Shown here in pieces: positions 26,001 through 64,000 of a stretch of 64,000 nucleotides of DNA (position 1 is the stretch's first letter; each line of letters starts with the position of its first letter). The stretch spans positions 25,027,537-25,091,536 of the forward strand of contig NC_134428.1 in NCBI RefSeq assembly GCF_030867145.1, given 5' to 3'. Under the pieces are notes generated by a model. The model worked only from the letters and a program-made list of their open reading frames with translations, was not told where the DNA came from and searched no databases. Made by a program: the position numbers and the translations under genes. The DNA is from Opisthocomus hoazin. Taxonomy: Eukaryota; Chordata; Aves; Opisthocomiformes; Opisthocomidae.

Positions 26001-29000
26001 CCCGGGGGATCTCGGTGAGCTGGGGGGTGGCCCCGGGGGACCCCGGTGAGCTGGGGGGTGGCCCTGGGGCACCCCGGTGAGCTGGGGGGTGGCCCTGGGG
26101 CACCCTGGTGAGCTGGGGGGTGGCCCCTGGGGGACCCGGGCAAGCTGCGGGGTGGCCCTGGGGGACCCCAGCGAGCTGGGGGGTGGCCCTGGGGGATCCC
26201 AGTGAGCTGAGGGGTGGCCCCGGGGGACCCCGGCTCCCAGCAGCAGCACTGGAAACTTTTAAGGGGAAAAAAAGAAATCGGATGCTGCGAGAGTTGCAGT
26301 GAGATTGTGAGAGCTGGCAACACCCAACCAGTTGTTTCTTTTTTTTGATTTTATTGAAGGGGTTTCATTGTTATTTAATGTCTTGTTTGTGCATTTGAAA
26401 ATGGACCAGCTCGAACAGCGTTTCCGAAACCTTTTTCCTTCTGAAATGGCGACAGGTTCTGGGGCAGCAGCGCCGGGGCCGGGGTGGCGATGCGGCTGGT
26501 GGTCCGAGCAGCGTTCGCCCGCACACGCGTCCCTGCCGACGGGTGCAGGCGGTGATGGTGGCAGGTGGAGCGTGCCGTGCCGTGGCGTGGCGTGGCGTCT
26601 TGATCCAGCTTATGAACTCACCGGCCACTGGCAGTATCGGGATGCCTAGAAAAAAAATAATGGCTACATCTTGCAAATTTTTTTGGCATGCAAATAGGCA
26701 AAACACGCAGTGAATTTTTATTGCTTTCTAGTATATGCGTGAATCCAACTTACCCAGACTGGCTTTCCTGTTCTTGGCGTGGGCAAGGGCAGCGAAGCCT
26801 CCTCCAGAGCCCCCGTTTCTGCCGGGGCGAGTGCCGGGGGTTTCTGGGGAGCCCAGGGAACGTGGCACCGTTACAGGGAGCGCCGCGTCGCAGGGCTTGG
26901 CTTTCACAGAGGCCAAGTCCCCCGGGAGCTGAGGGAGTGTCCTCCCAGAACACAAACGCTGGCACCGGTCGGGAAGGAAATAAAGAACAGAGCTGGCAGG
27001 AGACGCGGCAGCTCCGTGTGAGCGGAGCGCGTGAGAGCGAAGAGTCCGAGCGGGTGCTCGGGGCTGGGTGACGCGAGGGGAGCGTCGGTGGGCGCTTAAT
27101 CCCAGGGAGGGGCTTTGTGGACCTGAGAGCTGTTTCTTCCGGCGGCCGAGGATTTTGTTTAGTCGGGAGGTTTAAGACCCTGGCGAAAGCCCCGGATCAT
27201 CTCTGCGGGAGGATAAGCAGTTTTGCCCGAGGATTTCTGCTCGGAACAGATGTTGAATTGCTGTAGGTGACCCTGCTTCGGCAGGAGGGTTGGACTAGAT
27301 GACCCACAGAGGTCCCTTCCAACCCCTACTATTCTCTGATTCTGTGATTCTGTGAATTAGGGTTGTTTTTTTTTTGTCTTAAACAAAGATCCTGAATTCA
27401 TTTCAGTTAAGGACCTTGAATTCAAGATTTTGCGGTGAAAGCAGAGCGAGCCCGCTTCGGACGTGGCACCGGTTACCGCCCTCGCAGCCAAAGGGACCCT
27501 GCAGACCACGCTTTCCCCTGCGTGGTTTATTTATCGGGTGGTTTGATGGCACCGGTGATGCCGGGGGCTCCCCCGAGGGCGGAGGGACTGGGGATCCCCG
27601 CGCTGGGACAGGCAGCCACGCTGCGCCCTTCTGGGGTGACTTTCTCCGTGCTTTCACCCTGCTGCCGGAGCTCTGACCCCGTGAAAATGGAGCGGGAGGA
27701 AAATGGTTGAGAAAGGCCCTTTTTAAGGCTGAAGAGGGGATCCCAGCCGCGTTCTCCTCCGCTTGCGAGGCGTTCCCCCGTTTCCCAGCCGCGGAGCCCC
27801 GTGCGTCCTCCACGGCCGCGCGGGTCCGACCCTCTTCGGCCGCTTGAATCATTTCCTGTTTTCTTCGGTTTTTGGAGAACTCCGAGGCGAGCCGGCAGCG
27901 TTTGCAGACGGGGTGAGCTGACCGCGCCGGGGCCATGGGAAAAACGCAGCGAGGGAGAGGCCGCACGCGCGGGGTCGTGGCCGGCCCCGGCTTTTGCGTT
28001 GGCAGCCCCACCTGGTTTGGCCGGAGCTGAGCTTTATCGATCAGTGGGTGTTGCACTGATGATTTCCTTTTTTTTTTCCTTTTTAAGATCTGATCTGCCA
28101 TTCAGCGTGACCTGGACAGGCTGGAGAGCTGGGCAGAGAGGAACCTGATGAGGTTCAACAAGGGCAAGGGCAGAGTCCTGCACCTGGGGAGGAACAACCT
28201 CATGCACCAGTACAAGCTGGGGTGGACCTGCTGGAGAGCAGCTCTGTGGAGAGGGACCTGGGTGTCCTGGTGGATGACAGGGTGACCATGAGCCAGCAGC
28301 GTGCCCTGGGTGCCAAGAAAGCCAATGGGATCCTGGGGTGCATCAAGAAGAGTGTGGCCAGCAGGACGAGGGAGGTTCTCCTTCTCCTCTACACTGCCCT
28401 GGTGAGGCCTCATCTGGAGTACTGTGTCCAGTTCTGGGCTCCCCAGTTCAAGAAAGATGAGGAGCTACTGGAGAGAGTCCAGCGGAGGGCTATGAGGATG
28501 GTGAGGGGACTGGAGCATCTCCCCTACAAGGAGAGGTTGAGGGAACTGGGCTTGTTCAGCCTGAAGAAGAGAAGGCTGAGAGGGGACCTTAGAAATGCCT
28601 ACAAATATCTGCAGGGTGGGGGTCAGGAGGATGGGGCCAAGCTCTTTGCAGTGGTGCCCAGTGACAGGACAAGGGGCAATGGGCACAAACTGAAGCAGAG
28701 GAAGCTCCAGCTGAAGATGAGGAAGAACTTCTTCCCTCTGAGGGTGACGGAGCCCTGGCCCAGGCTGCCCAGGGAGGCTGTGGAGTCTCCTTCTCTGGAG
28801 ATATTCCAGCCCCGCCTGGACGCGGTGCTGTGCAGCCTGCTGTGGGTGACCCTGCTTGGGCAGGGGCTTGGGCTGGGTGACCCACAGAGGTCCCTGCCAA
28901 CCCCTACTATTCTGTGATATTCTGTGATATTCTGATATTCTGTGCATGGAGGTGTCGATGCTAAGAGCATCGCCCTGGGCATGTGCCCGAGGATCTTTCT

Positions 29001-44213: not shown

Positions 44214-44337
44214 TCAGCGTCTCTTAGCAGCTGGGCAAGTGTCTTGATTGAGGCACTCGGCGCAGCGAGGGTTCACAGGCAGGCAGGTCTGCTGGCCAAA
44301 GCCCACCAAGAGCCAGTTTATCTCCCGCCAGTGATCC
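44214..44337 (-). CDS. NTHL1: NTHL1 exon 6 (4Fe-4S cluster and stop)
   Basis: The acceptor tcactgcag borders 44337. G completes Arg254, then 40 codons and TGA at 44216-44214. The peptide [20 protein letters not shown] is followed by the three further cluster cysteines and ends PAAKRR. Confidence 0.96.
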
Positions 44338-47300
44338 CTGCAGTGAGAAGAAAACATGAGCTTTCCAATACAGCTGCTCGGAGGGGTTAAAGAACAGCCC
44401 GTGCTTTTAAATGGCTCCCTTTTGCCTGCTGCCTGTTCCTCTTGGCTTCCCAAGACGCCTGGAGGCGGGTCCCAGCCTCCTGCTAAGAACAGCCCTCCTG
44501 ACCTTTCCTGATGCCTCTGAACTGGGGGGGAGCAGAGGACAGACACACGAAGCGCCTGCCGTCAGTCTCTTGTGCTAAGGCACGTGCCAGATGTGGAGAT
44601 GCGACAGTGTACCCGTCAGCTGGCACTGATGCTGAAGATCAAGCATCAATGAAGGCCAGAATCCAGCAATGGTCTGACACTGCTGTGGCCTTCAGGCTCA
44701 GCAAGGTCCTGCGGAGAAAAGCACCTGGCTTGGATCACGGTAAGCTTGTCAAGGCAAGAACTGGGCATCAAGACCTCCAGGTACCTGCCTGCACTAGTGG
44801 TGATCTCTCTATATATGTGATATATGTGATATATATATAAAAATATATGTTTGGAAACAACCGAGTGGCTGAGATGCTGCTGCTGCAGCTCTCTGGGAGA
44901 GGAGCAACACCTGCAAGATTAGTCTCCCATAAATAGGAGGGCCCCACAGCGCAGTCGCTGACAACGCTGGAGGCAGGAGTGCGTGCAGCCATGGCTCCTG
45001 CAGCTAGCGCGAGGGCCTTGGTGCGGAGGAAGGAGGCTGGGGTCTCAGGCCTCACCTGGGCAGCCAGTCCTCCAGCGCTACCCGAGTTTCCTCAGGGTTT
45101 CTGGTCTCCTTCTTCACCCACTTCAGCCTGTTTGTGATCCTGTGCACGTGGGTGTCCACAGCTAGGAAGGGAGAGCCCAGAGTTTAGGCGGCGGCAGACA
45201 CAGCTGAGCGGAGAGAGCACAGCCAAAAGCTGCCCGTCGCGGCACAGCAGGCACAGGGCCCCGCGCGGGCAGGTGGAACGGGAGGGGAGGCTCCTTCCCA
45301 GAACAAACGTCCTGCTTTCTTCCTAGGCCCGGAGCCAGAGGCGAGACGGGACGGGTGTGTGGCACCCCGCGACGCGCTGGCGCAGCCGGACCCAGCCTTC
45401 CTTCAAAGGCTGGCGTGCTCGGCTCCGGCGGGCACGGGGCAGCCTGTCCCGGGTTCGCTGCCTTCCCCGCCTGTCAGCTGGTGTTACGCAAGCTGCAATC
45501 TCTGCCCCTTCGTTCGCCCAGATGGAAAACACGTTTCGTAACACCTACCAACACGGGAGGGTTTGTGAGGCTTAAACGAATGTTTATGAAGTGCTTTGAG
45601 CTAAAAAAGCTCTGAATGCAAAGTATATTATTGTTAGATCAGCAGCGATAAACCCGTCTCTATGGCTAATTGGGCAAAACCCAGGAAACTGCTGTAAACA
45701 GGAAGACCAAGTCTTGCCTCCTAAATCAAAACTGAGCACACAATTATTTGGAAAACAGTTGGCTGGTTTGGCTCCCTCTGGACTTCCCTCCCCCACAGCA
45801 AGGAGAGAACAACAGACCCCGAGCGCTGTCGGATCTAGCGCAAGAGCCGCATTGCGTACGGCTGACGGTCACCAGCGGGGCTGCGGGAGCCCGCTGCCAC
45901 CCTCGGGCTCCGTGCTCACCGTGGTGGCAGGCACTCGTCCCGTGGCACCATTCCTAGCGTTCCCAGGGCTCCCCTGTTCAGCAGCCTACACTTGGAACAT
46001 TAATCTGTCCCCGGGGGTGTCCAAACCGGGCAGCCCGCTGGGACCCTGCAGCTGATCATCCAGCCCCATCTGCTGGCTGCTGCCCACTGCAGCTCTGCTG
46101 CCAGCCACGCTCCCCAAACCAGCACCGTGCAGGGGCAAACCTGCCCACGCTCCCCAAACCAGCACCGTGCAGGGGCAAACCTGCCCACGCTCCCCAAACC
46201 AGCACCGTGCAGGGGCAAACCTGCCCACGCAGCCCAAACCAGCACCGTGCGGGGGCAAACCGGCCCACGCTCCCCAAACCAGCACCGTGCAGGGGCAAAC
46301 CTGCCCACGCACCCCAAACCAGCACCGTGCGGGGGCAAACCTGCCCACGCACCCCAAACCAGCACCGTGCGGGGGCAAACCTGCCCACGCACCCCAAAGC
46401 AGCACCGTGCGGGGGCAAACCGGCCCGGGGTCTGCCCTGGGCCCAGCTCCACCGCAGCCGTCCTCCCAGCCCATCGCTGCCAAAGCACACGGCTCCACGG
46501 GGTACAGCTCCGCGCTCTCCCACACTCTCTGCTCCATAAACACGGCAAATAAATATACCCATGGTCACTTACTACCCAGCTGCAGGAACTAAAACAGACC
46601 AGAAATTCTGTAGCTACAGATTGCCTGAGACCATTTCTTTCTACAACCCATCATGAATTGCTGATTTCAAACCATAATTTTGATCAAGCCCTGCTTCTGC
46701 CCTCCTACGGCTCGCCAAACAAAAATCCCAAATGAGATTTGTTTGAACGGAAGCAACCCTGGAAAAAAATAACCTCAGTCTATCCCACAACTATCCTCAA
46801 ATCACAAAATTACCCCCACCTCTCTTTAACTTGGCACCAAAGAGATGTCAAAGCATTATTCTGCTAGCGCATCTTTTTGGATGCCTACCCAGTTAGGCAA
46901 TTCTTGACTCCTTGTCAGCATCTGTGGGGAGGGGATTTCTGCTGTCAAATCTGGGGAAAAACGGCAGCTTGATCCATGCTTAAACCCTACTACAACTCAC
47001 CCAGTGCGAGTGGTCGAGGGCTGCACCCGTCATCCACCCAAACAGTCTGCAGATGACTAAACCAAAGCGACGCTATCAGGGTCCTGGGGCAGCTGCAACG
47101 CTTCCCCTCTGCCCAGGGAATGGATCAGGCAGGATTTAGGAGAGGAATGGGGAAAACACGGTCCAGCCTACCTATCCCGGACACGCTGTCCCAGGCGATG
47201 TTCATGGCCAAGTGGGCCATTTTGGGCCCAACTCCCGGCAGCTGCACCAGCTCCTCCACAGTTCTCGGTATGTCACCCCCGTATTTCTGCTTCAGGATGG

Positions 47301-50300
47301 CTGTCGTCTGCTTTATGAACTTCACCTTGTTCTGGAAAACCAAGGGGAAAGGCAGAAAAAATCCAAGCTGACCTCCAACATAGGGAAAAGAGACAAACAG
47401 CTCCGAAAACAAACCGTTCCTGAGGGTATGTTACATGAGGCCACACACTGGAGCTTGCAGAGGGGAGACAGATTTCTCCTTGAAAGCAAAATGCTGAGAC
47501 CTGATTAGCAATAACCTCCCCCTGCACACTCCAGGTACTGCAGCAAACAATCTTGCTGTGAATAAACAGCTAAAACTGGCATAAAATACAGCCTTCAGCT
47601 CGACTCCAGGGGAAAATCAGGCCTGGGCATGGCCCGGCGGCTCAGTCCCAGCTGGGGGTACGTCTCTCCGGAGCAGGGCTGCTCCGCACCCACCTCCTGC
47701 CTTCGTTACCTGCTGTCAGCTCAGCGACTGGAAACGAGTACAGCCTGCACAGGACCCGCCCGACCCGCCCTGCGTGGCCCCTCTTGGGCCTCGGAGCCGT
47801 CTCGGACGGCCGCACGGGAGCGCAGGACGGTGGAGGGGGGTCCTCCCTGCGCGCGCTGGGTGCTGCCGCGATCCTGCACTCACCCTCCAGAAGCCCACGG
47901 GGTAGATGATCTGCCCAAGCGTCGCATCATCCATCTGCAGAACGCTGTCGACCGTGAGGCCACGCTGCCTCAGGCGCAGCATGGCGGCTGACGTCACCTG
48001 GTCCTTGGTCTGGCTGGAGAGCATCAGCGACAGCAGAACTTGGTAGCGCATAACCTGGGGAACGGGAGACAGTGAGACACCCCGAGACCTCTGAGAGGGA
48101 ACGGGAGACAGTGAGACACCCCGAGATCTCTGAGAGGGAACGGGAGGCAGTGAGACACCCCGAGACCTCTGAGAGGGAACGGGAGACAGTGAGACACCCC
48201 GAGATCTCTGAGAGGGAACGGGAGACAGTGAGACACCCCGAGATCTCTGAGAGGGAACGGGAGACAGTGAGACACCCCGAGATCTCTGAGGGGGAACAGG
48301 AGACAGTGAGACACCCTGAGACCTCTGAGAGGGAACGGGAGACAGTGAGACACCCTGAGACCTCTGAGAGGGAACAGGAGACAGTGAGACACCCTGAGAC
48401 CTCTGAGAGGGAATGGGAGACAGTGAGACACCCCGAGATCTCTGAGAGGATCCAGCCACCTCTGGGGCTCGGCGCTCTCACCCAGCACCATCTTCAGTCC
48501 AGTGCATAACATGGACCTACCCTGGTTCAGCCATATCCATCTACAGGAGACTGGAAGGCTGCAACAGAAATAATCCATAACCTTTTAGTTCTACCACGCA
48601 ATAAAGGGAGAAAAGAAACACCTCCGATCTAAGCAGTCAGCATGCCTAAAAGGGCAGAGAGCAGCTCCTGTCTGCTGGGATGTCACATCCAAAGGTGCTG
48701 GTGCTCAGCCACAAAGGGCCAGACAAAGCTTTTCCTGATGATGGGATTCTCAGGAGACCCCACACGACGCAGAAGTACAAACGCCCAATGATTTTTTCAT
48801 GCAACTTCTGCTCTAAAGCGGCTTTTGAAAATCCCGTCCCTTTCCCACCAGGCTTCAGCAGGACCCAGGTGTCTGGCTCCAGTGAGCGCTTTACGAAACC
48901 AAATCTGAAGAAGGGGATGACAGAGGCTGGGAGATGAAGCACCAAACGCAGAAGTCCTCGCCCAGGGTTTAGCCCAGACCATTCACCTTCCGTTTTCCAG
49001 TTGATTTTTCCCCAGATGCAATTCTGTCCCTACCAGAATGGGGAGGATGACGCAGCTATCCTGGACTGACCCAGGACAGCGTGGGACACAATCCTCCCTC
49101 CAGCCCTCTTACAAAGTTTACAAAACCACAGGTGCGTCAGGAAAAAATCTGAGTGCAGGGAAGAAGGGGAATCTCCGAGCGCGTGGAAGCTGTGTGAGGA
49201 GCGCTGGTGTGTGCCGAGGGTCACGGCATCCACTTTTTCTTGGAAGCAACAACTTCCCTAGGGAAGAAAAGTTATTTCGGTATCGAGCACCGCGGTCCCC
49301 CCGGCCCCACAGCTGCGCTTGGGGCCAGCCCACACGGCTGCGGAGCGTGTGACGCTGCCTGGAGCCGGAGTGGAAGCTAACCGCTCTCCCCAGGGATCCG
49401 AGCCCCAGGCACGCCGCCAGCAATACCGACAGCGTTCCACGCGCCGACGCTGCGCAGCTGCGTCTTCGAGACCCCTCCCTCAGAGCCCGGCGGGTCGCTG
49501 CGGAGCGCACGATTCCCGCTGCTCGGCCGAGCCTGCCTGCGGGTCATCTCCACGTTCCCGCACCGCGGCCTGGATCCGCTTTGTTGTTTTGTCCTGATGC
49601 AGATGGTCCCCTCGGAGGAAGGTGTCATCTGGGCGCCTTCGATTGCGTTCCCAGGCTCGGGGAGCACAGAGCCATCCCAGCACGGCCCTTCCTTTCAACC
49701 AGTCTCCCTTAAAAGCGGACGGCAAGAGGGGAGGAAGCCAACCTACGCTTATGTGTTGCTCTGAAGAGCGTAAAAGCAGACTGGAAAGTTTTTTCTTGGC
49801 TTCTCTCACCTATTCTCCGTGCTTTTTTTCCTCTGTGTTACAGAGCCATCTTGCTGGATACTTCCCTCAGATTCCTACAAAGATTTTTAAGAAAAAAGGG
49901 ACGTGCCTTCATGCCCTGCCAGCCTGCCCCAGAAGACAGCACCGCCACAACCCACTCTCAGGGTTTTCACTCCCAAGTCCAAAATCATCCTGGTTTTGCC
50001 TGCGCTCCCACTCCGGGTTCAGCCTGCTGACTCTTCTGGCAGCAGTTTAAGCAGGGGACAAGGGCCTGTCACAGCTGTGCCGGTCTCCAATGCCCCGCAC
50101 GGGCTCACCACGAGCAGAGAGCATCTCGGAACACACCCACGGCCGTCTCACAAGCCTGGCTGAAGCCAGCGAGCCTGCTACCGGAGAGGCAGCGGCTGAC
50201 TCTCCTCCTCTAGCAGGACGAGTGGCTTCTCACACGCCCGCTTCTGCAGTAACCTCTCGTGGGATCAGTCCCAGCCTACAGTTCTGACACGCCCTGAGGT

Positions 50301-52030
50301 TATTTTTCCGTTCTGGAGACATCCCAAGCGGGGCACATCCAGGGGCAGGATGAGGGTGAGGGAGGCCGGAGGGCTGCGGCAGCGGGGCTGTGTTTCCACG
50401 AGCCTGCCTGCCGGAGCAGGGCAGCAGGGCGGTGTTACCTGCGGAGGTGCGCTGCTGTCGTAACACTTCTCCACCCCCATCTCATCGACGGGAGCATCTC
50501 TGTTCCTCCTCATCTCCCGGATGTGCTCCAGCTGCTGCCGCCAGCCCCTTGGCTCCCAGCGTGGTCTCTGGGGCTCAGACGTCCCCTGCTCGGCACCATC
50601 GCCCTGCCCGGATTCGTAGGCAATGGCGACGCTCTTCCTCCTCCTGCTGCGCCGCGGGACGCCGGCTGTGCTGTGCAGCTGGCTCGCTGCGAGAGATGGG
50701 AGACAGATTTTCAGGCCAGAGGCCAGGGGAAAGGAAGAGGCAGAGCCCAGCATCATCCCTGTGTGCCAAAACCACCCGGGGACCCTGATGACGGCTGAAC
50801 TCGTCTTCCCCATAGACTCAACCCAGCAGCAACACTGTCCGTCCACCCAGCCCTAACCAGAGCCAGCCCGCGGGGCGAGGAAAGGCTGGGAAGGACCTGG
50901 GAAACCTGTGACAACAACTGGGGAGATGTCACACTAGGGGGACTCACGTCCCAACACGCACGAAGTTGCTGAAGGACAAGATGCATCACAGAATCCCAGC
51001 ATGGCAGGGGTTGGAAGGGACCTCTGTGGGTCACCCAGCCCAAACTCCTGCCGAAGCAGGGTCACCCAGAGCAGGCTGCACAGGACCTCATCTAGGTGGG
51101 CTTTGAATATCTCCAGAGAAGGAGACTCCACAGCCTCTCTGGGCAGCCTGTTCAGTGCTCCATCACAGAGTGAAGGAGATCTTCCTCGGGTTCAGCTGGA
51201 GCTTCCTCTGCTTCAGTTTGTGCCCGTTGCCCCTTGTCCTGTCGCTGGGCACCACTGGAAAGAGTCTGGCCCCGTCCTCCTGACCCCCACCCTGCAGATA
51301 TTTAGAGGCATTTCGAAGGTCCCCTCTCAGCCTTCTCTTCTCCAGGCTGAACAAGCCCAGCTCCCTCAGCCTCTCCTCGTAGCAGAGATGCTCCAGTCCC
51401 CTCCTCATCCTCGTAGCCCTGCACTGGACTCTCTCCAGTAGCTCCTCATCTCTTTTGAACTGGGGAGCCCAGCACTGGACACAGTACTCCAGATGGGGCC
51501 TCACTAGGGCAGAGTAGGGGTTTTGGGTGGGAAGGGACCGTGAGAGGCCAGCCCACCCAGTCCAACCCCCTGCCACGGGCAGGGACATCTCCAGCCGGGT
51601 CAGGGTGCTCAGAGCCCCGTCCGGCCTGGCCTGGAACGGCTCCAGGGGCGGGGGAGCTCTGGGCAACCCTGGCCGGGGCCTCCTCGCCCTCGCAGGGAGG
51701 GATTTCTCACTTCAGTCCTTTCTCGGTCCACAGCCGCCGCCCCTCGCCGCAAGCCCCGCTCAAAGCTTCCCCGTTTCCACCCCCAGGCCCTCGCCCACCG
51801 CCACGGGCAGCCCCCGGCTCCGAGGGGGACGCTGGGCCGGGCCCGGCCCCCGCCGCCCGCAGGCCCCGAGGCCGCCAGCCCCCTGCCAAGGCCGGGCTGG
51901 CGCCGTCCCCGGCCCCTCAGCCGCCGGCGGGCCCCGATCCCCGTCCCCCCGTACCTCCGGCCGCCCCTCGGGCCCTGCCGAGCCGCCGGGCCGCCGCCCG
52001 CCCCCCGCCGGCGGGCACGGCCGCGCACAT
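44214..52030 (-). CDS. NTHL1: NTHL1 endonuclease III-like DNA glycosylase, complete, six exons
   Basis: NTHL1 is a bifunctional DNA glycosylase/AP lyase that excises oxidised pyrimidines at the start of base-excision repair in nucleus and mitochondria. The coding exons, 5' to 3' on the - strand, are 52030-51955, 50686-50439, 48054-47884, 47331-47172, 45161-45056 and 44337-44214. They total 885 nt, or 294 residues plus TGA, and all phases agree. Residues 1-49 are Arg-rich without an acidic residue, as in a mitochondrial leader, and RRSRRRK at 37-43 could be a nuclear signal. The core has the helix-hairpin-helix [13 protein letters not shown] with catalytic Lys202, then VDTHVHR with Asp221. Cys272, 279, 282 and 288 form the C-x6-C-x2-C-x5-C 4Fe-4S ligand set. 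Each is 18 less than the human position, matching the 312-residue human protein. All catalytic residues are intact. Confidence 0.96.
44809..44850. repeat. AT-dinucleotide-rich tract
   Basis: Alternating TATATATG and ATATATATAT in NTHL1 intron 5, isolated within GC-rich sequence. Confidence 0.9.
45056..45161 (-). CDS. NTHL1: NTHL1 exon 5 (catalytic Asp)
   Basis: The acceptor ttcctag borders 45161 and the donor GTGAGG follows 45056. CT completes Ala219; then come [17 protein letters not shown] with Asp221 and [13 protein letters not shown], with AG left for Arg254. This 106-nt exon has no long open frame of its own and was found by matching the VDTHV motif. Confidence 0.95.
46101..46430. repeat. 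40-bp minisatellite in NTHL1 intron 4
   Basis: The block agcaccgtgc recurs at 46121, 46161, 46201, 46241, 46281, 46321, 46361 and 46401, an exact 40-bp period over eight copies with few substitutions. Units read ccaaaccagcaccgtgcagg then ggcaaacctgcccacgc. Confidence 0.97.
47172..47331 (-). CDS. NTHL1: NTHL1 exon 4 (helix-hairpin-helix, catalytic Lys)
   Basis: The acceptor ttttccag borders 47331 and the donor GTAGGC follows 47172. The exon has 53 codons plus one base. It contains [20 protein letters not shown] and the catalytic Lys202 directly after it, then [10 protein letters not shown]. Confidence 0.96.
47884..48054 (-). CDS. NTHL1: NTHL1 exon 3 (glycosylase core)
   Basis: The acceptor gttccccag borders 48054 and the donor GTGAGT follows 47884. 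The exon is 57 codons in phase 0. Peptides [20 protein letters not shown] and [20 protein letters not shown] are close to human. The acceptor sits at the edge of a 39-bp tandem array. Confidence 0.96.
48061..48450. repeat. NTHL1: 39-bp minisatellite at the NTHL1 exon 3 acceptor
   Basis: Ten copies with an exact 39-bp period, starting 7 bp upstream (in transcript sense) of exon 3. On the - strand each unit contains CCCGTTCCCTCTCAG and then AGGTCTCGGGGTGTC, so each has a pyrimidine tract plus AG, and 39 nt is 13 codons with no stop in the NTHL1 frame. Confidence 0.97.
50439..50686 (-). CDS. NTHL1: NTHL1 exon 2 (basic region and N-terminal helices)
   Basis: The acceptor ctctcgcag borders 50686 and the donor GTAACA follows 50439. 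The exon has two bases plus 82 codons. Peptides include [28 protein letters not shown] and [20 protein letters not shown], matching human WQQQLVNIRAMRN and APVDHLGTEHCYD. Confidence 0.95.
50984..51517 (-). mobile_element. CR1 LINE in NTHL1 intron 1
   Basis: atcacagaatcccagcatgg through cctcactagggcagagtagg; includes [20 protein letters not shown] on the - strand. Same orientation as NTHL1. Confidence 0.92.
51520..51705 (-). mobile_element. CR1 fragment of another subfamily
   Basis: Contains gtccaaccccctgccacggg and gctcagagccccgtccggcc, the antisense 3' region of the CR1 type with the line ...cacttccaggg...gagcatcc. It directly abuts the previous copy. Confidence 0.75.
51955..52030 (-). CDS. 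NTHL1: NTHL1 exon 1 (start codon, organelle leader)
   Basis: ATG occupies 52030-52028 in the context gccgccATGT, and the donor GTACGG follows 51955. The exon has 25 codons plus one base: [20 protein letters not shown] and five more residues. This frame was chosen because its phase fits exon 2; the overlapping frame from a GTG at 52028 does not. It shares the MC start with human NTHL1. Confidence 0.85.
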
Positions 52031-52384: not shown

Positions 52385-52880
52385 CCCGGGGGGGTGGCGG
52401 TGTGGGCCCGGGGGGACGCTGGGCCTGCTCCTGGGCCGGACTGGGGGCTGCGGTGTGTCCTCCCCCGGGGCTGGGGGCTGAGGTGTGACCCCCCCGGGGC
52501 TGCAGTGTGACCCCCCCCCGGGGCTGGGGGCTGAGGTGTGACCCCCCCCCCCACCCCGGGGCTGGGGGCTGAGGTGTGACCCCCCCCACACCCCGGGGCT
52601 GGGGGCTGAGGTGTGACACCCCCCGGGGCTGCAGTGTTCCCCCCTGGGGCTGGGGGCTGCATTGTGACCCCCCTGGACTGGGGGCTGCAGTGTGAGCCCC
52701 TGCTGGGGCTGGGGGCTGTGGTGGGATCCCCCCCGGGGCTGCAGCGTTCCCCCCTGGGGCTGGGGGCTGCATTGTGACCCCCCTGGACTGGGGGCTGCAG
52801 TGTGAGCCCCTGCTGGGGCTGGGGGCTTCGGTGGGATCCCCCCCCCGGGGCTGGGGGCTGCGCTGTGTCCCCTGGGCTGC
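52385..52880. repeat. GC-rich imperfect minisatellite in TSC2 intron 1
   Basis: Repeats of ggggctgggggctgaggtgt with variable C runs. A 110-bp block at about 52631-52740 is duplicated directly at 52741-52850. Confidence 0.88.
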
Positions 52881-53981: not shown

Positions 53982-56900
53982 GTGTGAGAACTGACCGTGG
54001 CAAAGGTGGGGGTGGTGCCCGCATGACCTGAGCTGAGAGGATCGGAGGGAGGGTTTGCTCACTCTCCATTTTGCCATTCATTCCCTCTCCAGTCATGCCC
54101 TTTTACCTTACCTCTCAATTCATTCTCTAGTGAGACAGATGTAGATCTCGCCTGCTTTGAAGCTGCAGCATTTTCGTTGTTCGGTGTTTGAATACTTTTG
54201 AGATATTAGATGGGACGGTGTTGTCCTGTGTTGGGTTACGGGGTGTTTCCTCAAACACGTTGCTCTGTTTGTAGAGCCTGAGCTTGGTGAAGTTTATGTG
54301 GTGGCAGTTAGCACAGCTGGAAACTGTTTCTATTTTATGAAAACCTTATGGTTTTGTGAAAATTTAAAAAAAAAATTGCAGTAATCAGTGCAGCAAGTCT
54401 GCAAGCAGAACAGTTGGCACACAGGGAGGAGAGCACAGAGGAGGGAGAAGGAGACCAGAATCCCTTCCCGTCTGCGCTGGAGCAGCCGGGCTCTGACCTG
54501 CTGGAAGGCTGGTGAGCCGGCCTTAGCGTCCCTCCTTTCCCTGCCCTGCTCCCGTGAGCTGGGCGAGCGCCACAGCCAGTGAGTTATTAGCTTTTCTGGA
54601 GAAAATTGGATGTTCTGTGCTGGAGGTGCAAAGCTGCTTGGCTGCAGTTCTGTGAGAGTGCTAGTTTTGACGAATCATTTGCTAATGGAAAAAAGTTTGT
54701 GGAGAGATTCCTGAAAAGCTCCGGTGATGACTAATGGTTGGATCGTTTTGGACAAATGTGTAATTCATTTTTCAGTGGTGCATGATCCCCTTTGCGAAAT
54801 GGAGAAGTGTTTCTAGTAAGATAAACTGTTAGCTGATTTCTACATTTCTTTCCAGGAGCTGAGCGTGGAATGTGGATTAAGTAATAGGATACGAGCAATC
54901 AGTCAAATTTGTGAAGTGGCAAAAACGAAGAAAATTGAAGAGGTAAGTTGCAAAGTGGTCAGTGAAGATCTGAAGGATGAACATTTAAGCAGCAGCTCTT
55001 AACTTATGGTGACAGGCTCCCGTAGTTGAGACTGCCTGCTAGGATCGGTAAGCCCAGCAGCTGTGTGTTGTGCTGTCCCAACCTGTAAAAGGATGGCCGA
55101 GGAAATTGGTCTTGTCCAACCCACCGACCGTGGAGCAGAGAGGACGTAGCTGATGGGCCTGCTGAGCTGAACGGAAGGAGAACGCCGTGGAGGTTGGGGC
55201 CTGTTCAGGACAGTTGACGGGAGAGGATGTAAATCCTGCAGAAGAGGTGTTCGCTAGCTCCTTCTGTCCTGTTAATAAGCAACCTCAGATTGGTTTAAAC
55301 TCCTCTTGTATTTGGGTGAAGGTTTCTGTGCAAATGTTCATGCTGAAGGAAGTGTGTGTATGAAGAACTCGGTTGCTGGGGTGCCAGCTGTCACCTGGGA
55401 CAGGAGCTGGTGTCTCTCGTGTGGTTCATCTGCGCTCATGAGCGGACAGGTGGGAGTGTCCCTCAGAAGAGAGAACTCTCAGCGTGAAATCCCTGGAGAT
55501 CTTGTTCATTAACTTGCTGTAATTAACGACTGACCTACTGCATAAAGATCCTAGAAGCAGTTTAACTTTCCTGCTACTGCCTGTCCCCTGTGTTTGTTTT
55601 CAGCACGCGGTGGAAGCAATATGGAAAGTGGTAGCTGATATGCTCCAGCCAGAGCGCCCCGTCGAAGCCAGACACGCCGTTCTTCATCTGCTGAAGTCAA
55701 TCGTTCAAGGACAGGTGAAAACAAACAAACTATGGGAGAAACACTACACTTAAACTAGGGTCTGTGCAAAGGATGAACGTGAAAAATATCGGGTGGCTCT
55801 TTTCTACAGCTTTCCGTGTTTCTTATTTTGGTGGTGCCTAGTAAATGGGAAGAGGAAGCATTTTAATTTAACTATTGGGTGGATCTTGTAGCAAAACTTT
55901 TCATACACCTCGTAGAAAACTTTTCTGTTTTGGGCCAATGTTCTTGTAGAGGAAGGAATGTTTTGGGTTAAGTTCAGCATAGCGTAGCAAATTTTAAATG
56001 GTCTTTGCCCAGACATATTAGTCCTAGTCTGAAGCTGGTTTTGATGTTTCAGTGTGTCACACATGCAAGAAGTTCTGTGCGAGATACTTGTCTAGCCTGG
56101 CCAAGTTAAGCATACTGTGAATTCTTCAGATTTCACAACGTGCTGCACAGCCTAAGGCTGTATCAGACCAAAGTTCTAGTTTTCAGTATTCTAGAAAAGC
56201 AGAGATAGGTGCTTACGAATAGAATCACAGAATCACAGAATGGTAGGGTTTGGAAGGGACCTCTGTGGGTCATCTAGCCCAACCCTCCTGCCGAAGCAGG
56301 GTCACCTACAGTAGGTTGTAGAGGACCTTGTCCAGGCGGGTCTTGAATATCTCCAGAGAAGGAGACTCCACAACCTCCCTGGGCAGCCTGTTCCAGTGCT
56401 CCGTCACCCTCAGAGGGAAGAAGTTCTTCCTCATATTCAGAGTGGGCATTGATTCTGGTTTGTTGGGTGGTTGTTTTTTAAGCGCTCTCCTGGCAGTGCT
56501 GCCACTTGCAGTTTCCCTGGGGTACTCTGAGTGTTGGATGCTGTCTGTGTGTTGCTGGACAAAATGCCTCCAACCCTGAGTGCTGATCTAACTGACTGAG
56601 GAGACCTGAGCCGTTGTCAGTAGCCAGGAGAGGTTGGCGGGATTTTGAAGAGACTTTCATAGACCGTAGGAAAACAAAATAATTTCAAGCATGAAGATTG
56701 CTGTTACAGACCTTGATAAGGTCCAGGCCTTAACTGTCTTTGTTTCATTAGTGACATTGTTATTCTCCCCCCCGCCCCCCTCTCTTTTTTGTTTTTTAAG
56801 GGTGAGAGATTAGGGATCCTCAGAGCACATTTTTTTAAGGTTATTAAGGACTATCCCTCCAATGAAGACTTGCATGAACGGCTTGAAGTGTTCAAGGCTC

Positions 56901-59900
56901 TAACGGAGAATGGACGATACATCACCTACTTAGAAGAAGAGTTAGGTGAGGATTGTCTCTGCCCCTCCTCAGTTTGGTGGGAGTAAGTTAAGGGATGGGC
57001 ATTCAGTGGTACGAGAAACAGGTAGTGATAACACTTCTGGGTAGAAGGTGTATCGTAACAATTTGTTTTGCTTCTTTAGCTGACTTTGTGCTACAGTGGA
57101 TGGATGTTGGTTTGACTTCTGAGTTCCTTCTGGTTTTAGTGAACCTGGTGAAATTCAATAGCTGCTATCTGGAAGACTATGTAGCTGACATGGTCCAGTA
57201 AGTTTTTTTTTTTTTTTTTTAACTCCTACATGCTTATTCTTGGTAAATTACAGGGGAGAGTTGCAGATCAATACACAGATAAGTGGAATGTTTTCCATCC
57301 GATCTGGATCTGTTCCATTCCAGGTCATACCTAGCATTTCTGACACGTATTTGATTTTCAGTTCTCACAACGTTCAGATCTGTTTTAGTGTCACTGCATG
57401 TGCTTTCCCCATTTCATGTGATGGACCCGATTGCATTGATTAGTCTCACAAAGGCTCTTTGCTGTCGTGTTAGTGTAGGCATACTGAGTTGTGTTTAAGG
57501 GCAACTTTAAGCTAACTTTTATTAGGAGGTCATAGTGTTCAGTGTCTCTAGCAGTGTTATCAACAACAGCACAGTAAGGGGAATGATGAGTAAAATAACA
57601 TGCCAATTTACTTGTCTGTTTTGGCTCTTTGTAATTTGCCTAAAATCATATTAAACAAACAATTACAATTAAATATTCTTTCCTAACAGCAAGATATGCC
57701 TCTTGTGCATTCAGACTTCATCATCTGTGGACATAGAGGTCAGTAGTTTCAGTCCCTCTTAGTACTGTAGACTTCTTTGAAATTCTTTGACACCGTAACT
57801 TTTGCAGACGACCATAGCATCAGACTCTCCTCTCGGTTTATTCTCATATTACAAGAGATCTAATACAATGTTATGAAGTATTTGTAAGCTGTTGGATCTC
57901 GTACACCAATAATAATTTTATTTTAAAACAGACAGAGCATTGGTAAATTTCATAAGCAGATCAGTTTTTCAACAGTGCATTTTAGGGTTTACTTTCCATC
58001 TTGCTATGATTTAGAAAGAAAAAAGAAAAAAAAAAAGACATATCTGTATCCCTTTTGACTTGCAGATTTCCTGGGTCTGCCAGGTTAGGATTTGACCCGC
58101 TTTGTTCCTGGAGAAGTACATAACCATTTTGCCTTTCTCTTTCCCAAAGATTTCCTTGCAAGTCCTAGATGCAGTTGTTTGCTACAACTGTCTGCCGTCA
58201 GAGAACCTGCCAGTGTTTATCATCACTTTGTGCCGTACCATCAATGTGAAGGAGCTCTGCGAGCCGTGCTGGAAGGTCAGAACTTTCTTGTAGCTTTGTT
58301 TTTTAACGAGTTTACTGTCCTGGCCTGGTAGATGAAGTGTTGGGTGTGCCTATGCACATTTGCCATAAATTTCAGTTTGCTTTTAAGAGTAAATTAATAA
58401 AAGTTTCAAGTGTTAAGGGATCAGCACTTTGTTGGTGTAAGTCCATCAGGTCTGTGGAATTTACCCGTGGTTTCCTCTCGGCTGATGTGGCAGGCTGCCT
58501 GTTCTCTAGTGCCGTGGAAATGGCCGGACACATTGACTTGCCATAAGTGGGCACGGTTGGCCAGCCAACTGCGTATCTAGGCTAGTGAGTGTTTTAACAA
58601 TCGCATATTTAAGTGTTCTCTTTGAATTTGCAGCTTATGCGCAACCTTTTGGGGACTCATTTGGGACACAGTGCCATCTACAACATGTGCAGGATCATGG
58701 AAGACAGGTAACGAAGGTGTATCTAACAAAACCCAAGGAATTCAGTACAGGTCCTGCTGAGACAAATAGGGAGTCACAGCAGAACAAACTGAAGGTTCTG
58801 GTGCTTAGAAGTGAATTCCCTTTCTAGTTCTGCTGCTGAAGTGCTCATTTTTTTGGCTTCTCTGAATTTGATTTTCCTTTGTTTAAAGTTGTACTAAATA
58901 TTTTTCTGCTTTTAATGTTTGTAAATTGCTGTGCAAGGCTCTGATGTATAAGAGCTGGGAAGTGCTGTTGTGACAGTGTGTATTCCTACTCACTCTCATA
59001 AGCTAAAATAGTCGTAGCATGGTCTAAGTCTTCCCTTCCATCTGTTCTTAGAGCTTACATGGCGGATGCAGCGCTGCTGAGGGGAGCTGTGTTCTTTGTT
59101 GGGATGGCTCTGTGGGGTGCTCATCGCCTCAATTCACTCAAGAATTCCCCAACTTCAGTGCTGCCTTCGTTCCTCAAGGTAGGATGGGATGCTGGAGGAA
59201 CTGCTTAGTCAGGTGTACATCTGGACCTGCACCAATTTAGAACAGAAATGTGGCCCCCTGCACCACAGAGACCTTTGTATGCCTGAAAGATGAGAGGCAG
59301 CAATGGAGTATGGGGTGAAGCATGGGGAAACAGTAAAACAACAGTGGATTTAAGTTTGAAATTGAGGCTGCCTCCTGGAATATCTTTATTGGCCAGAAAA
59401 GCAAAGTCTGAATTCTTGTAATCAAATATCTACATTGTGGGTGCTTTTAGCTTTGAAAATAAACTGCAAAAACTTTAATTCTTTCCAGTGTGTGGTACAA
59501 GAAGTGAGGGACAGTGTCTTCAGGGAAAGCCTTAGGGCTCTCTTAAAATTTTTTCATCCAAGTGCATCAAGCAGGAATTACTAGCTTTAAGCTCACGTGT
59601 CTGCTCTGTCAGATGGGACTGTATTTGACATCTGATCTACAGCTGCCTGCAGGAGTGCGTAGCTGCACTTTATACAATGGTTCTTTGCTTTGCCCTTTGT
59701 GTGTATAGACTTGAATATGTTCATCTTAGACCTTCAGGCTAAGTTCCTAGTTAGTAAGGTGTGTTTCATTTGCATTTAAGAGGGTTTCTGATCACTGCTT
59801 TCCAACTGTTAACTGGCTGAAATGCTTTGTGTTCCAGGCCATGACATGTCCCAATGCAGTTGTATCTTATGAGATAGTTCTGTCCATAACACGTCTAATA

Positions 59901-62900
59901 AAGAAGTATGGGAAGGAGCTGCAAGCTGTAACGTGGGACATCCTTTTGGACATCATGGAGCGATTACTGCAACAGCTGCAGGTAAGTGTGGAGCCTGTCT
60001 TGATTGCTTGCAATCAAAAGACTTCGCCACAAATATTTTTGCAAATTGATCTCCCGTTTGTACATCCTAGTGAACTTTGAAGCTGGATGAAGTTTTAGCT
60101 CAATTCTCAATACTGTGCTTCTCAACTGAGTTCTCTGTAGCTGAAGTTAGCATGTTCTGGTAAGGTGGAAAGTCTTTTAGGAATGTTTTTGTCTCTGTTT
60201 CAGAGTCTGGAGAGCCAAGAACTTAAGTCCATTGTACATGATCTTTTGACTACAGTAGAAGAACTTTGTGACCAGAATGAATTCCATGGCTCTGAAGAGA
60301 GATTTTTTGAGCTGGTGGAAAGATGTGCTGATCAGAGACCAGTAAGACTTTATGTGTTAATGTCTTCCTTTGTTGCCAGTTGAATCCGTTTTGTTACTCA
60401 GTACAGTTGACAGTTGGGAGTCCTAAAATAGCAAGTGGTCAGAAAATCACAGCAAGGACTTATATGAGCTTTATTCTCAGGGTGGGGGTTGGGGGAATGA
60501 GTATATTGTATTTTCTTATAGACTAAAAAAAATTCTTGATCTTTCTGTGAAAGGAATCTTCTGTATTAAACTTGATAACATACAGAGCTCAGTCCATTCA
60601 TCCTGCCAAAGATGGCTGGATTCACAACCTGCAGATGTTAATGGAGAGATTCTTCAGGTATGAAATCATAACTTTGTGAATACAAGGCACTTTCAAATGT
60701 TTCTTGCCACCTTGTCTTGTTAAACAATTTTGTTTTCTGAAGTTCTGATGTTAGTAAGTGACTGCTAAGAAGTATGGTAGTTCCAGGGCAGAGTACATGA
60801 AAGGATTTTGTTTAACAGAAGAAAAACTTTCCACTGAGTTATTTATGCTGCCTTTTTTTTTTTTTTTTCTTTTTATTTCCATTGGATGGTGCTATTCCAG
60901 TTAGCTTGGGCAGTTATGTGTTCCACTCCACAACACTTTGTAGTTCTGACACCAAACGAGGCTTTCCTGTTAAGCATCAGGATTCTGTATGGGTATCCAG
61001 CATTAAAGTTATCTGGTTTTGAATCGGTACTGCTAAAAGTATTCTTGTGCTCTGAGATATCAACATGCAGCAATAACAGACTTCTGGCTTATCTGGGAAA
61101 TGGTGCCAAAGAGCAGCTCTTTCTTGGTGCCAGATGTTTGGTTTTAAATTTGCTCATTGGAGCACGTTCTTCGTAGTTTAGATTGGAAATGGGAAAACTG
61201 CAGTTACAGGTCTCCAGAATAGTAAAAGTTGAACTGGGGTTCCAGTTTCCGATTGTTCTTGAGCCTGATTTCATATGTAGAGACATTAACTGAAGGCTCA
61301 GCTGATCTCTAACAGTTATTGTTTTAACTCTGAAGAAGTTTCTTAGTTTACTTTAGTCTTACTTTCCTTTTCTCCTCTCCCCCCATCCCTAAATATCAGC
61401 AACTTTATTTTATTCATCTTGAATTTGCTCTTCCCATTTTAGGAACGAAAGTCGCAGTGCTGTTCGTATTAAAGTTCTGGATGTCTTGTCCTTTGTCCTG
61501 AGCATTAACAGGCAGTTCTATGAGGTGTGTGCTTTACCTGTTTCTGAGGGTCACAGGTGAGATCTTGAGCGGGTGGGAGAGGCTTTGGTGAGGTGTGTTT
61601 TATGGTGTGCTTCCAGTCATCTCTGCCACTGGGGAATGCACAGAACTGTGCTTTACATGTTGCACACAGTAGACCTGTTTCTTTAGGATGCTTGTAGGAG
61701 GACTTGCCTTTTAATTATCCTTAGTTGGGTACGGGTGTGTGCAGCTTGCAGTGGGAGCTGCTGTGTTTTGAGGTCGTGTCTGGTTGTGTATTTGGTTCAT
61801 TAATTCCATATACATTTTGTTTTGGAAGAAAGGAAGGTCAGTGTGAGGGATGCAGAGTTTATTTAAGAGCTTTTTACAGAGATGAGCTCTGGACATAATC
61901 TGACGTGAGCAGGTTGACTTGTCTTGGTGCTTGCAGTTTATTGCAATCCAAGATGGAAACTGTCCAAGAGAGGAGTTATGGAAGAGCTCTGGGGATTACA
62001 TCAGCCCCTTGGAATGTACCCAGAGTGTCAGAGGACAGGAAGGGGCAGAGTTGCTGCTTAGATTCCATCAAGACTTGTGAAAACGCAATGCTTTTGCGTG
62101 TTTCCTCTCTCTCTTGAAAAGCCAAGCCCTAGAAATCCTTCTGAACAGTCTGTTTGAGCCTGGGCTATCAAATCTGTGTAAGAGATGAAAACCAAAGCAC
62201 TGAATCCAAGTTTGACAGAAGTCGTAAATATTTGGAGGGATGGCATACAGAACTACTTAATTGGATGGAAGAGGAAAGATCAAGGAACCAAACAGTTGAG
62301 GAGCAAGCCTGATATCAGAATATCAATGTTCTTGTGTTTGTAATTATTTGTCTCTTTAATATGCTGATTGAACAACTGACAGTATAATGTCCAGGCTTAG
62401 TAAGGTCTGTCCTCTTGCAGGAAGAGCTGATAAACGTGGTTGTGATCTCTCAGCTGGCTCATATTCCGGAGGATAAAGACCATCAAGTCCGAAAACTGGC
62501 CACTCAGCTACTCGTAGACCTGGCTGAAGGCTGCAACACGCACCACTTCAACAGCTTGCTTGATATCATAGAAAAGGTGAGGCTGAGTTTCATCTGTTGT
62601 CAGTAGCATCACCACATCTTTTGCCAGATCCTCTTGCGGTGCTTGAGGAGACTGACCCGTGACTGTTACCAGTTTCATGGCTCAACAGGATATTGTAAAA
62701 CCACTGGGTTTTGGAGGGTGCAAGTCTGATGTGCAGAGTGGAAGGGAGCTTTAGAAATCCTACCGATGCACAGCCAAGCTACCTGACGGGGCTTGCAGAA
62801 TTTCCAGCAGGGGTGACTTGCTGTAGTCTTTCCTGACCTTCCAGGATGAAAATAAAGAGAAGGTGTGTTGCAAATTTAAACCCAGTATTACTTTTCTTTG

Positions 62901-64000
62901 TAAAAGGTGGCTGCACATTCTCTCTCATCTCCTTCTGAACTGGAAGAGAGGGACTTGCTGTCGTATTCGGCTTCTTTGGAGGATGTCAAGACAGCAGTTC
63001 TTGGACTCCTGATAATTCTTCAGGTAAATGCTGCAAAGCAATAAACACATCTTTAGAGTAGTCTTCTGCTGGACTTGGCTTTTTAGATAACTGTTCTCCC
63101 ACTATTAAATATCCCAACTTCTGTTTCATCCACTTAATACTTTAACTCTTGGTCATTCCTTTTGCTTTTGAGTACTGTATGACTGTTTGCCAAATGTTTT
63201 ATTTCTTAATTTCTATTGTACAATTAATATAAGCACGTTTTCATGTGTGGAGGGCAGATGTGTTCATCAAACAGCAGAAACGGAGTGGTTTATAACCTTG
63301 AATAGATCCGTTGTGTGTGGGTAGCGTGTCCTGAGATACGGTTAAGCAGATGCGAAGAGCTGGTTGTTCCAGCCACTGCCCTTCTGGAGCCAGGCAGAAT
63401 TGCTCTGGAGCCTTCGCAGAGGTTCTGTCCAGAGCCAGCTGTTCATCTTACTTTCAGGAGCAAGTTTTTGCTGTGTTTTTCTTGAATTCTTAGTGCACCT
63501 ACACATTTCTGACAAACAGGCGTCAGTCTGCCTGTTGGTTTGTGTTTCTGTTCCTCTGTAGACAAAACTCTACAGCTTACCCTCCAGCCACGCGATGCGG
63601 GTGTACGAGATGCTCATCCACCACGTCCAGCGCCATTATATATACGCGTACAGCCTTGCTGTTGCTAGCAGCATCCGACTGCAGGTATGAGCAGTAACCT
63701 ATGCTTTCAGGTCGAGAGCTGCATGTGGCCTTTGGCATTCCTGGCTGGCAGGTGGGGATTGTGTGCTCTAGAGCTCGCCAGAAGTAGAATGAAATGTTTC
63801 TTGGCTGATAGGAGTGTGTACTTGCAAAGGAATCATGTGGGGAGGTGGGAGAGCATTTGACTGGCTTGGGTTTTGACTGATTCTGATGTCTTCTCTGTTA
63901 CAGGTATTCGATTTCCTACTGATGCTTCGAGCTGACTCCCTCCACCGTCTTGGCCTTTCCAACAAGGATGGAGCAGTGAGGTTCAGCCCGTACTGTCTGT
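53844..64000 (+). CDS. TSC2: TSC2 (tuberin), 3'-partial, 17 coding exons
   Basis: Tuberin pairs with TSC1 and TBC1D7 in the TSC complex, the GTPase-activating complex for Rheb that restrains mTORC1 at the lysosome. Seventeen coding exons with AG/GT borders and agreeing phases join into residues 1-645 of a protein of about 1800. The start [15 protein letters not shown] matches human [15 protein letters not shown] and has a strong context (G at -3 and +4). The visible part is the alpha-solenoid N-terminal region: the TSC1-interacting segment (about residues 1-400) and the start of the following tuberin region. The C-terminal RapGAP-like catalytic domain lies beyond the window. Numbering runs level with human: the human hotspot Arg611 is Arg611 here, but human Ala614 is Val. 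Short exons and AT-rich introns contrast with the GC-rich neighbours. Confidence 0.97.
54856..54942 (+). CDS. TSC2: TSC2 exon 3 (residues 47-75)
   Basis: Acceptor ctttccag, donor GTAAGT, 29 codons. Peptides [20 protein letters not shown] and VAKTKKIEE match human [20 protein letters not shown]. Confidence 0.96.
55604..55714 (+). CDS. TSC2: TSC2 exon 4 (residues 76-112)
   Basis: Acceptor ttttcag, donor GTGAAA, 37 codons. Contains [20 protein letters not shown], matching human [20 protein letters not shown]. Confidence 0.96.
56221..56440 (-). mobile_element. CR1 3' fragment in TSC2 intron 4
   Basis: agaatcacagaatcacagaa through ttcttcctcatattcaga. It has the less GC-rich ggtcatctagcccaaccc form. 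Confidence 0.92.
56801..56945 (+). CDS. TSC2: TSC2 exon 5 (residues 113-160)
   Basis: Acceptor tttttaag, donor GTGAGG, 48 codons plus one base that splits Ala161. Contains [20 protein letters not shown], identical to human over this stretch. Confidence 0.96.
57080..57197 (+). CDS. TSC2: TSC2 exon 6 (residues 161-199)
   Basis: Acceptor ttctttag, donor GTAAGT followed by a long T run. CT completes Ala161, then [20 protein letters not shown] and [18 protein letters not shown], ending with CA for codon 200. Confidence 0.96.
57690..57738 (+). CDS. TSC2: TSC2 exon 7 (residues 200-216)
   Basis: Acceptor cctaacag, donor GTCAGT, 49 nt. The split codon gives His200 (Gln in human), then [16 protein letters not shown], matching human MICLLCVRTASSVDIE. 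Confidence 0.93.
58150..58275 (+). CDS. TSC2: TSC2 exon 8 (residues 217-258)
   Basis: Acceptor tcccaaag, donor GTCAGA, 42 codons. [20 protein letters not shown] through [13 protein letters not shown] matches human closely. Confidence 0.96.
58634..58707 (+). CDS. TSC2: TSC2 exon 9 (residues 259-282)
   Basis: Acceptor atttgcag, donor GTAACG, 24 codons plus AG of Arg283. [20 protein letters not shown] matches human [20 protein letters not shown]. Confidence 0.96.
59052..59178 (+). CDS. TSC2: TSC2 exon 10 (residues 283-325)
   Basis: Acceptor gttcttag, donor GTAGGA, one base plus 42 codons. [20 protein letters not shown] is near-identical to human. The exon ends SFLK where human has SFYQ. Confidence 0.96.
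59838..59981 (+). CDS. TSC2: TSC2 exon 11 (residues 326-373)
   Basis: Acceptor gttccag, donor GTAAGT, 48 codons. [20 protein letters not shown] and [16 protein letters not shown] match human. Confidence 0.96.
60204..60341 (+). CDS. TSC2: TSC2 exon 12 (residues 374-419)
   Basis: Acceptor gtttcag, donor GTAAGA, 46 codons. [20 protein letters not shown] is identical to human; the exon ends [10 protein letters not shown]. Confidence 0.96.
60554..60657 (+). CDS. TSC2: TSC2 exon 13 (residues 420-453)
   Basis: Acceptor tgaaag, donor GTATGA, 34 codons plus AG of Arg454. [20 protein letters not shown] matches human [20 protein letters not shown]. Confidence 0.96.
61443..61524 (+). CDS. TSC2: TSC2 exon 14 (residues 454-481)
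   Basis: Acceptor cattttag, donor GTGTGT, one base plus 27 codons. [20 protein letters not shown] matches human [20 protein letters not shown]. Confidence 0.96.
62421..62576 (+). CDS. TSC2: TSC2 exon 15 (residues 482-533)
   Basis: Acceptor tcttgcag, donor GTGAGG, 52 codons. [20 protein letters not shown] is identical to human; the exon ends [13 protein letters not shown]. Confidence 0.97.
62907..63023 (+). CDS. TSC2: TSC2 exon 16 (residues 534-572)
   Basis: Acceptor gtaaaag, donor GTAAAT, 39 codons. [19 protein letters not shown] matches human [19 protein letters not shown]. Confidence 0.96.
63562..63684 (+). CDS. TSC2: TSC2 exon 17 (residues 573-613)
   Basis: Acceptor ctctgtag, donor GTATGA, 41 codons from [19 protein letters not shown] to ASSIRLQ. 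Arg611, a known human disease hotspot, is conserved. Confidence 0.96.
63904..64000 (+). CDS. TSC2: TSC2 exon 18, cut by the window end (residues 614-645)
   Basis: Acceptor gttacag ends at 63903, then [20 protein letters not shown] and [12 protein letters not shown] to the window edge, against human [20 protein letters not shown]. No donor is reached. Confidence 0.95.

Follow-up and report, generated by a model that had tools for sequence, protein, structure and literature searches.

In the window analysed here (the whole stretch of 64,000 nucleotides), intron 2 of the NTHL1 gene ends in a 39-bp minisatellite that presents nine complete candidate 3' splice sites directly upstream of the exon 3 acceptor, all of them in frame with it. 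We give roughly even chances to the reading that this is a young, single-locus minisatellite grown from a duplicated 3' splice-site region, in which the acceptor at 48055 is mainly used and the nearest copies yield minor isoforms. An earlier note on this DNA had proposed that the repeats act as alternative acceptors which vary the length of the protein; as a whole, that interpretation is partly supported by the sequence analysis, with function unproven.

The gene is NTHL1. Its exons 2-6, the part of the gene covered by our placement on the minus strand, were located through homology and splice signals. Joined, they give an open reading frame alignable with human NTHL1, and residues 21-266 of this frame match the human NTHL1 chain 7rds_A (E 1.3e-120), a match that spans the glycosylase core with the frame intact. 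The coordinates of the exons and of the repeat features are collected in the table, where a slash marks each splice junction; the phase 0 end of exon 2 given in the earlier note stands. A genome search that scored the best candidates only returned five matches, which are the window gene's own five exons 2-6, and no other NTHL1 gene or retrocopy (fossil cDNA) was found; a retrocopy as a record of junction use was accordingly dropped. Viral contigs, scanned with exon 3, yielded 12 pattern matches, with no relative among them.

Table. Coordinates within the window of the NTHL1 exons, the minisatellite and the candidate acceptors, with acceptor-matrix scores
Feature	Position	Strand	Description
NTHL1 exon 2	50439..50686	-	ends ...CYDSSAPPQ at CAG/GTAACA, phase 0
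NTHL1 intron 2	between 50439 and 48054	-	2384 nt
39-bp minisatellite	48058..48449	-	10.1 copies, 95% matches (TRF), 392 bp; 3' end of NTHL1 intron 2
5' flank	48442..48460	-	GGTGGCTGGATCCTCTCAG; its CAG has neither tract nor branch motif, score -1.01
First full unit and 5'-most complete candidate acceptor	48403..48441	-	CAG end 48403, score 6.31; splicing here would insert 348 nt (116 residues)
Eight further candidate acceptors	48091..48402	-	CAG last base 48364, 48325, 48286, 48247, 48208, 48169, 48130, 48091; scores 4.63-7.00
NTHL1 exon 3 acceptor	48055..48076	-	placed by homology; CTCAC branch-like motif, pyrimidine tract, CCCCAG/GTTATG; score 5.38
NTHL1 exon 3	47884..48054	-	171 nt (multiple of 3), phase 0 on both sides; VMRYQVLL...GFWR
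NTHL1 exons 4-6 with introns	44214..47331	-	exons 47172-47331, 45056-45161, 44214-44337

The gene adjoins TSC2, which lies on the plus strand and was recognised by its tuberin matches. TSC2 occupies 54856-64000 of the window, where 15 exon starts were placed against human tuberin, and it extends beyond the window end, residue 653 of the human chain being reached at the last searched bases. At ~40.6 kb the plus strand has a match to the C-terminal part of EBP50, which, judging from synteny, we take to be NHERF2. On the 5' side of NTHL1 exon 2, a minus-strand reading frame at 51163-51711 contains a stretch of a LINE that is presumably CR1-like.

The repeat array reported in the earlier note lies where it had been located. 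Its edge at 48058 is 4 bp from the exon 3 start at 48054, and the array is thus a run of tandem units in the 10-100 bp range (39 bp x 10.1) abutting an authentic splice site. The description as ten 39-bp repeats holds for nine of the unit intervals toward the exon 3 acceptor, but the last measures 36 nt. Similarly, the unit tail CCCGTTCCCTCTCAG, which had been presented as common to the units, is exact in 6 of the 9 full units, whereas the other three depart from it by one or two transitions. Four of the nine full units are identical, and the neighbouring units 2, 3 and 4 have the same two variants in common, from which growth of the array after its founding looks recent; together with the 95% matches, the identical units also bear out the suggestion that copy number could plausibly vary. 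In three neighbouring units (48394, 48355 and 48316), a shared G-to-A change has produced a further in-frame CAG, placed 9 nt within the unit, with a weak score of 0.05 each. A search of the 1.48-Gb genome, of a kind that skips very common words, gave one match to the array and no second copy elsewhere. That the copy number was produced by assembly seems scarcely credible: the array is only 392 bp long and carries unit-specific variants, and the window lies within a 26.8-Mb contig of a 1.48-Gb assembly in 415 contigs, figures which suggest long reads.

A complete acceptor module, comprising a branch-point-like CTCAC, a pyrimidine tract and CAG, is present at nine of the ten upstream unit-end CAGs (48403 to 48091). 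The tract and CAG had been ascribed to every unit; the 5'-most CAG, at 48442, is the one that lacks the module. In all nine candidate acceptors, CTCAC is a full match to yTnAy, is AG-free and lies 21 nt ahead of the final base of the would-be intron; the corresponding distance at the exon 3 acceptor, from the branch-like A at 48073, is 18 nt. On a simple matrix built on vertebrate frequencies, the nine candidates score 4.63-7.00, the exon 3 acceptor 5.38 and the tenth CAG -1.01. The other NTHL1 acceptors score 5.11, 9.28, 2.71 and 10.07. The 15 TSC2 acceptors in the window, used as controls, have a median of 7.06 (range 2.91-12.5), each having been taken as the best-scoring AG at most 21 nt from the aligned exon start, a choice that favours the controls; all nine candidates fall below this median. 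By these scores, the putative repeat acceptors are of middling strength, about equal to the neighbouring exon 3 acceptor.

Several further features were compared between the exon 3 acceptor and its copies. The base at +1 is G at the exon 3 acceptor only and A at all nine candidates. The second AG in CAGAG would break the frame if used, and two examples of it scored 2.11 and 1.53. A predicted RNA fold of 517 nt has a raw energy of -186.5 kcal/mol, a value given without comparison to shuffled sequence. Predicted openness at the exon 3 acceptor is 0.35 for the branch motif and 0.24 for the tract, against 0.42-0.80 and 0.31-0.59 at the nine candidates, while for the CAG it is 0.65 against 0.35-0.55. 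Modelled folding thus gives mixed evidence on the exon 3 acceptor versus the nine copies.

Minus-strand complete modules number nine in these 392 bp, against ~0.17 expected from the density in 264 kb (117 modules on the minus strand, the nine included), at a score cut-off of 4.6 that was chosen after seeing the weakest unit (4.63). Because the nine are copies of one original, they amount to one event. From 123 TRF rows we retained 18 minisatellite loci in the same 264 kb, window included (period 15-100, four or more copies, matches of 70% or more, overlaps removed and weaker arrays left out), and the units of one carry complete acceptor modules while those of the other 17 do not, the kept loci at 17234-17337, 17379-17565, 18408-18523, 22971-23875, 25483-26233 and 52438-52549 being without them. 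A shuffled unit carries the full module in 78 of 5000 cases. When the window's 8 minisatellite loci were placed at random, they overlapped one of the 20 acceptor modules by 30 bp or more in 54% of trials, and did so with exons spared in 3.0%; this placement used the 5 NTHL1 and 15 TSC2 acceptors and no other genes, with TSC2 exons set at 101 bp. An array of this kind is rare within one window, and such cases are to be expected somewhere in a genome.

The window contains a second minisatellite in NTHL1, in intron 4 (46105-46426; 40 bp x 8.1 copies, 95% matches), whose units are without acceptor-like modules. GC-rich minisatellites lie at 22971-23876, 25483-26233, 17003-18523 and 52438-52876.

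The junctions of the array bear on its origin. On its 5' side the array is flanked by ...GGATCCTCTCAG, and its last interval closes with CGTTCCCCAG/GTTATG. If a single duplication had linked CGTTCCC to TCTCAG, with CC common to both, the outcome would be a unit of 6 + 33 = 39 nt and a last interval of 36 nt. Since one duplication would explain both lengths, the array can have descended from the exon 3 acceptor, and the sequence makes this more likely than the proposal that the acceptor is an eroded last copy of the array; the alternative, a loss of 3 nt from a last unit, appears less likely. The 5' flank at 48442..48460 was likely already in place as the 5' partner when the founding duplication occurred. 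Under the preferred reading, tandem duplication of the 3' splice-site region of intron 2 would have repeated the module nine times upstream of the original.

All ten upstream unit-end CAGs sit a multiple of 3 nt from the exon 3 acceptor, which agrees with the earlier expectation of no frameshift, and splicing to any of the nine candidates would keep the frame, the 39-nt unit being stop-free in all sense frames. The insert had been put at 13 x n residues; this is incorrect, since the last step is 12 residues, and the k-th upstream CAG would add 12 + 13(k-1). The nine complete sites would therefore add 12, 25, 38, 51, 64, 77, 90, 103 or 116 residues, and the incomplete tenth 129. The NTHL1 frame is indeed open through the copies, but that this openness is meaningful is not supported: because all three sense-strand (minus) frames through the array are without a stop, the open frame is little evidence, and we dropped it as evidence for coding. 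Of random 39-mers with this base composition, 61% have a given frame open and 20% have all three. The six distinct unit variants are all transitions, four of them amino-acid-changing and two silent, and the 39 possible transitions of the unit comprise 24 changing, 14 silent and 1 stop. The split of 4:2 against 24:14, in small numbers, gives no sign of protein-level constraint among the units.

The insert would fall between CYDSSAPPQ and VMRYQVLL, and the predicted peptide has a high content of S, P, V and R. A single-sequence model of the repeats with exon 3 has a mean pLDDT of 49.6, for which reason it was judged unfit for a fold search, and the insert block is predicted at pLDDT 41-49 without secondary structure. 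PDB alignments show that the human NTHL1 constructs 7rds and 7rdt diverge just N-terminal to PKVRRYQ, and the insertion point adjoins the segment that differs between them. We take 7rdt to be an interdomain-linker chimera, reportedly from the work of Carroll et al. in 2021 on NTHL1 domain motion. As a matter of speculation, a longer linker at this point could alter NTHL1 domain closure. Interdomain work on NTHL1 is not described in excerpts of PMC9266487 and PMC12000561.

These data allow the functional proposal to be weighed, namely that copy number and acceptor choice together vary the length of the NTHL1 insert with an effect on function. Nine complete, in-frame, stop-free acceptors placed just before VMRYQVLL, beside the segment that differs between 7rds and 7rdt, fit such a length-tuning device. 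We nevertheless regard it as improbable, given unit variants whose 4:2 split against 24:14 shows no sign of constraint on the protein and an insert block modelled at pLDDT 41-49 without secondary structure. Its fullest form, a family of NTHL1 isoforms whose linker holds 0 to 9 repeat blocks, set by acceptor choice and inherited array length and tuning the opening and closing of this base-excision-repair enzyme, we find very doubtful.

U2AF and U2 snRNP bind the acceptor region, and each repeat could bind them likewise. Exon definition favours short exons and would lead to a preference for 48055 and the nearest copies (exons of 171, 207, 246 and 285 nt). Classical duplicated-site experiments, on the other hand, reportedly point to an intron-proximal preference among equal competing sites, under which 48403 would be preferred (exon of 519 nt) and the long form would be the main product. 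The winner among the acceptors cannot be read from the sequence.

A simpler account is that the array is an ordinary minisatellite carried as a silent passenger, only 48055 being used, a choice fixed by exonic enhancers or by exon definition acting from the donor of exon 3. This we think unlikely, though it deserves to be taken seriously. The region is rich in minisatellites (the 18 loci in 264 kb and the 40 bp x 8.1 array in intron 4), frame openness and unit variation show no sign of coding constraint, and the exon 3 donor, GAGG/GTGAGT, is near what we take to be the consensus; yet the repeat sites score as well as the exon 3 acceptor, and the nearest is only 36 nt away. The reading that we prefer has acceptor 48055 supplying most of the mRNA and one to three of the nearest copies supplying minor isoforms with +12, +25 or +38 residues, which would be tolerated without selection in their favour. 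The expectation of a canonical mRNA with minor nearest-copy isoforms is drawn from the donor-side precedents in ABCA7 and IFI6.

The same ABCA7 precedent lends itself to another reading, in which the array is a loss-of-function liability: it would weaken or confuse recognition of exon 3, and in-frame skipping of that exon would rise as the array grows. The ABCA7 VNTR is polymorphic in length and exon 19 skipping increases with the length of the array (PMC5954066). Exon 3 of NTHL1 is a multiple of 3 (171 nt), and many competing tracts could bind splicing repressors. The repeats could, however, equally aid inclusion of exon 3, and we see little chance that this reading is right.

With ten near-identical complete 3' splice sites whose main difference is their position, the array is a natural experiment in spliceosome choice, be it exon-proximal, intron-proximal or spread. 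As the ten sites are in frame and the repeat is without a sense-strand stop, read counts would show acceptor choice directly, no product being lost to a premature stop inside the insert. Since no other NTHL1 gene was found in this genome, inserted isoforms, if translated, would bring a longer segment in front of the helical core to the product of the one gene known here; and if array length varies, a DNA-repair enzyme would differ from one individual to another within a species.

A minisatellite that multiplies acceptors was not found in the open-licence literature among the matches listed, as judged by titles and the beginnings of abstracts, and none is described in the excerpts of PMC12783039, PMC3039753 and PMC3045353. 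Splice-site-bearing minisatellites of other kinds provide the closest parallels. Zhuo et al. are said to have reported in 2007 that introns arise from tandem arrays. Internal tandem repeats also occur at exon-intron borders of human paralogs (PMC2812944). In those cases, a minisatellite that expands at a splice border alters both splicing and the coding sequence, as it would in NTHL1; the reports there are of novel introns, whereas in NTHL1, where only the acceptor side was scored, an old acceptor would have been multiplied.

The nearest likenesses are on the donor side. The IFI6 (6-16) minisatellite, with its multiple splice donors, was reportedly described by Turri et al. in 1995. Two of its downstream repeat units are used as donors and give different isoforms, according to a later paper (PMC4526556). 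IFI6 thus resembles the NTHL1 array as a minisatellite that offers several splice sites to one transcript; its repeats carry a donor whose use is reported in transcripts, whereas those of NTHL1 carry a candidate acceptor with a branch-like motif and a tract. The VNTR in intron 18 of ABCA7, like the NTHL1 array, starts at an authentic splice site. Splicing at one of its repeats, with a single unit retained, is reported, in 2 +/- 1% of transcripts by our reading of the figure order (PMC5954066). The ABCA7 repeat is on the donor side, with a 25-bp unit whose single retention shifts the frame, whereas the NTHL1 array is on the acceptor side and in frame. Minisatellites that repeat donors are therefore already known in IFI6 and ABCA7, and the NTHL1 array, with its candidate acceptors, is their acceptor-side, in-frame counterpart.
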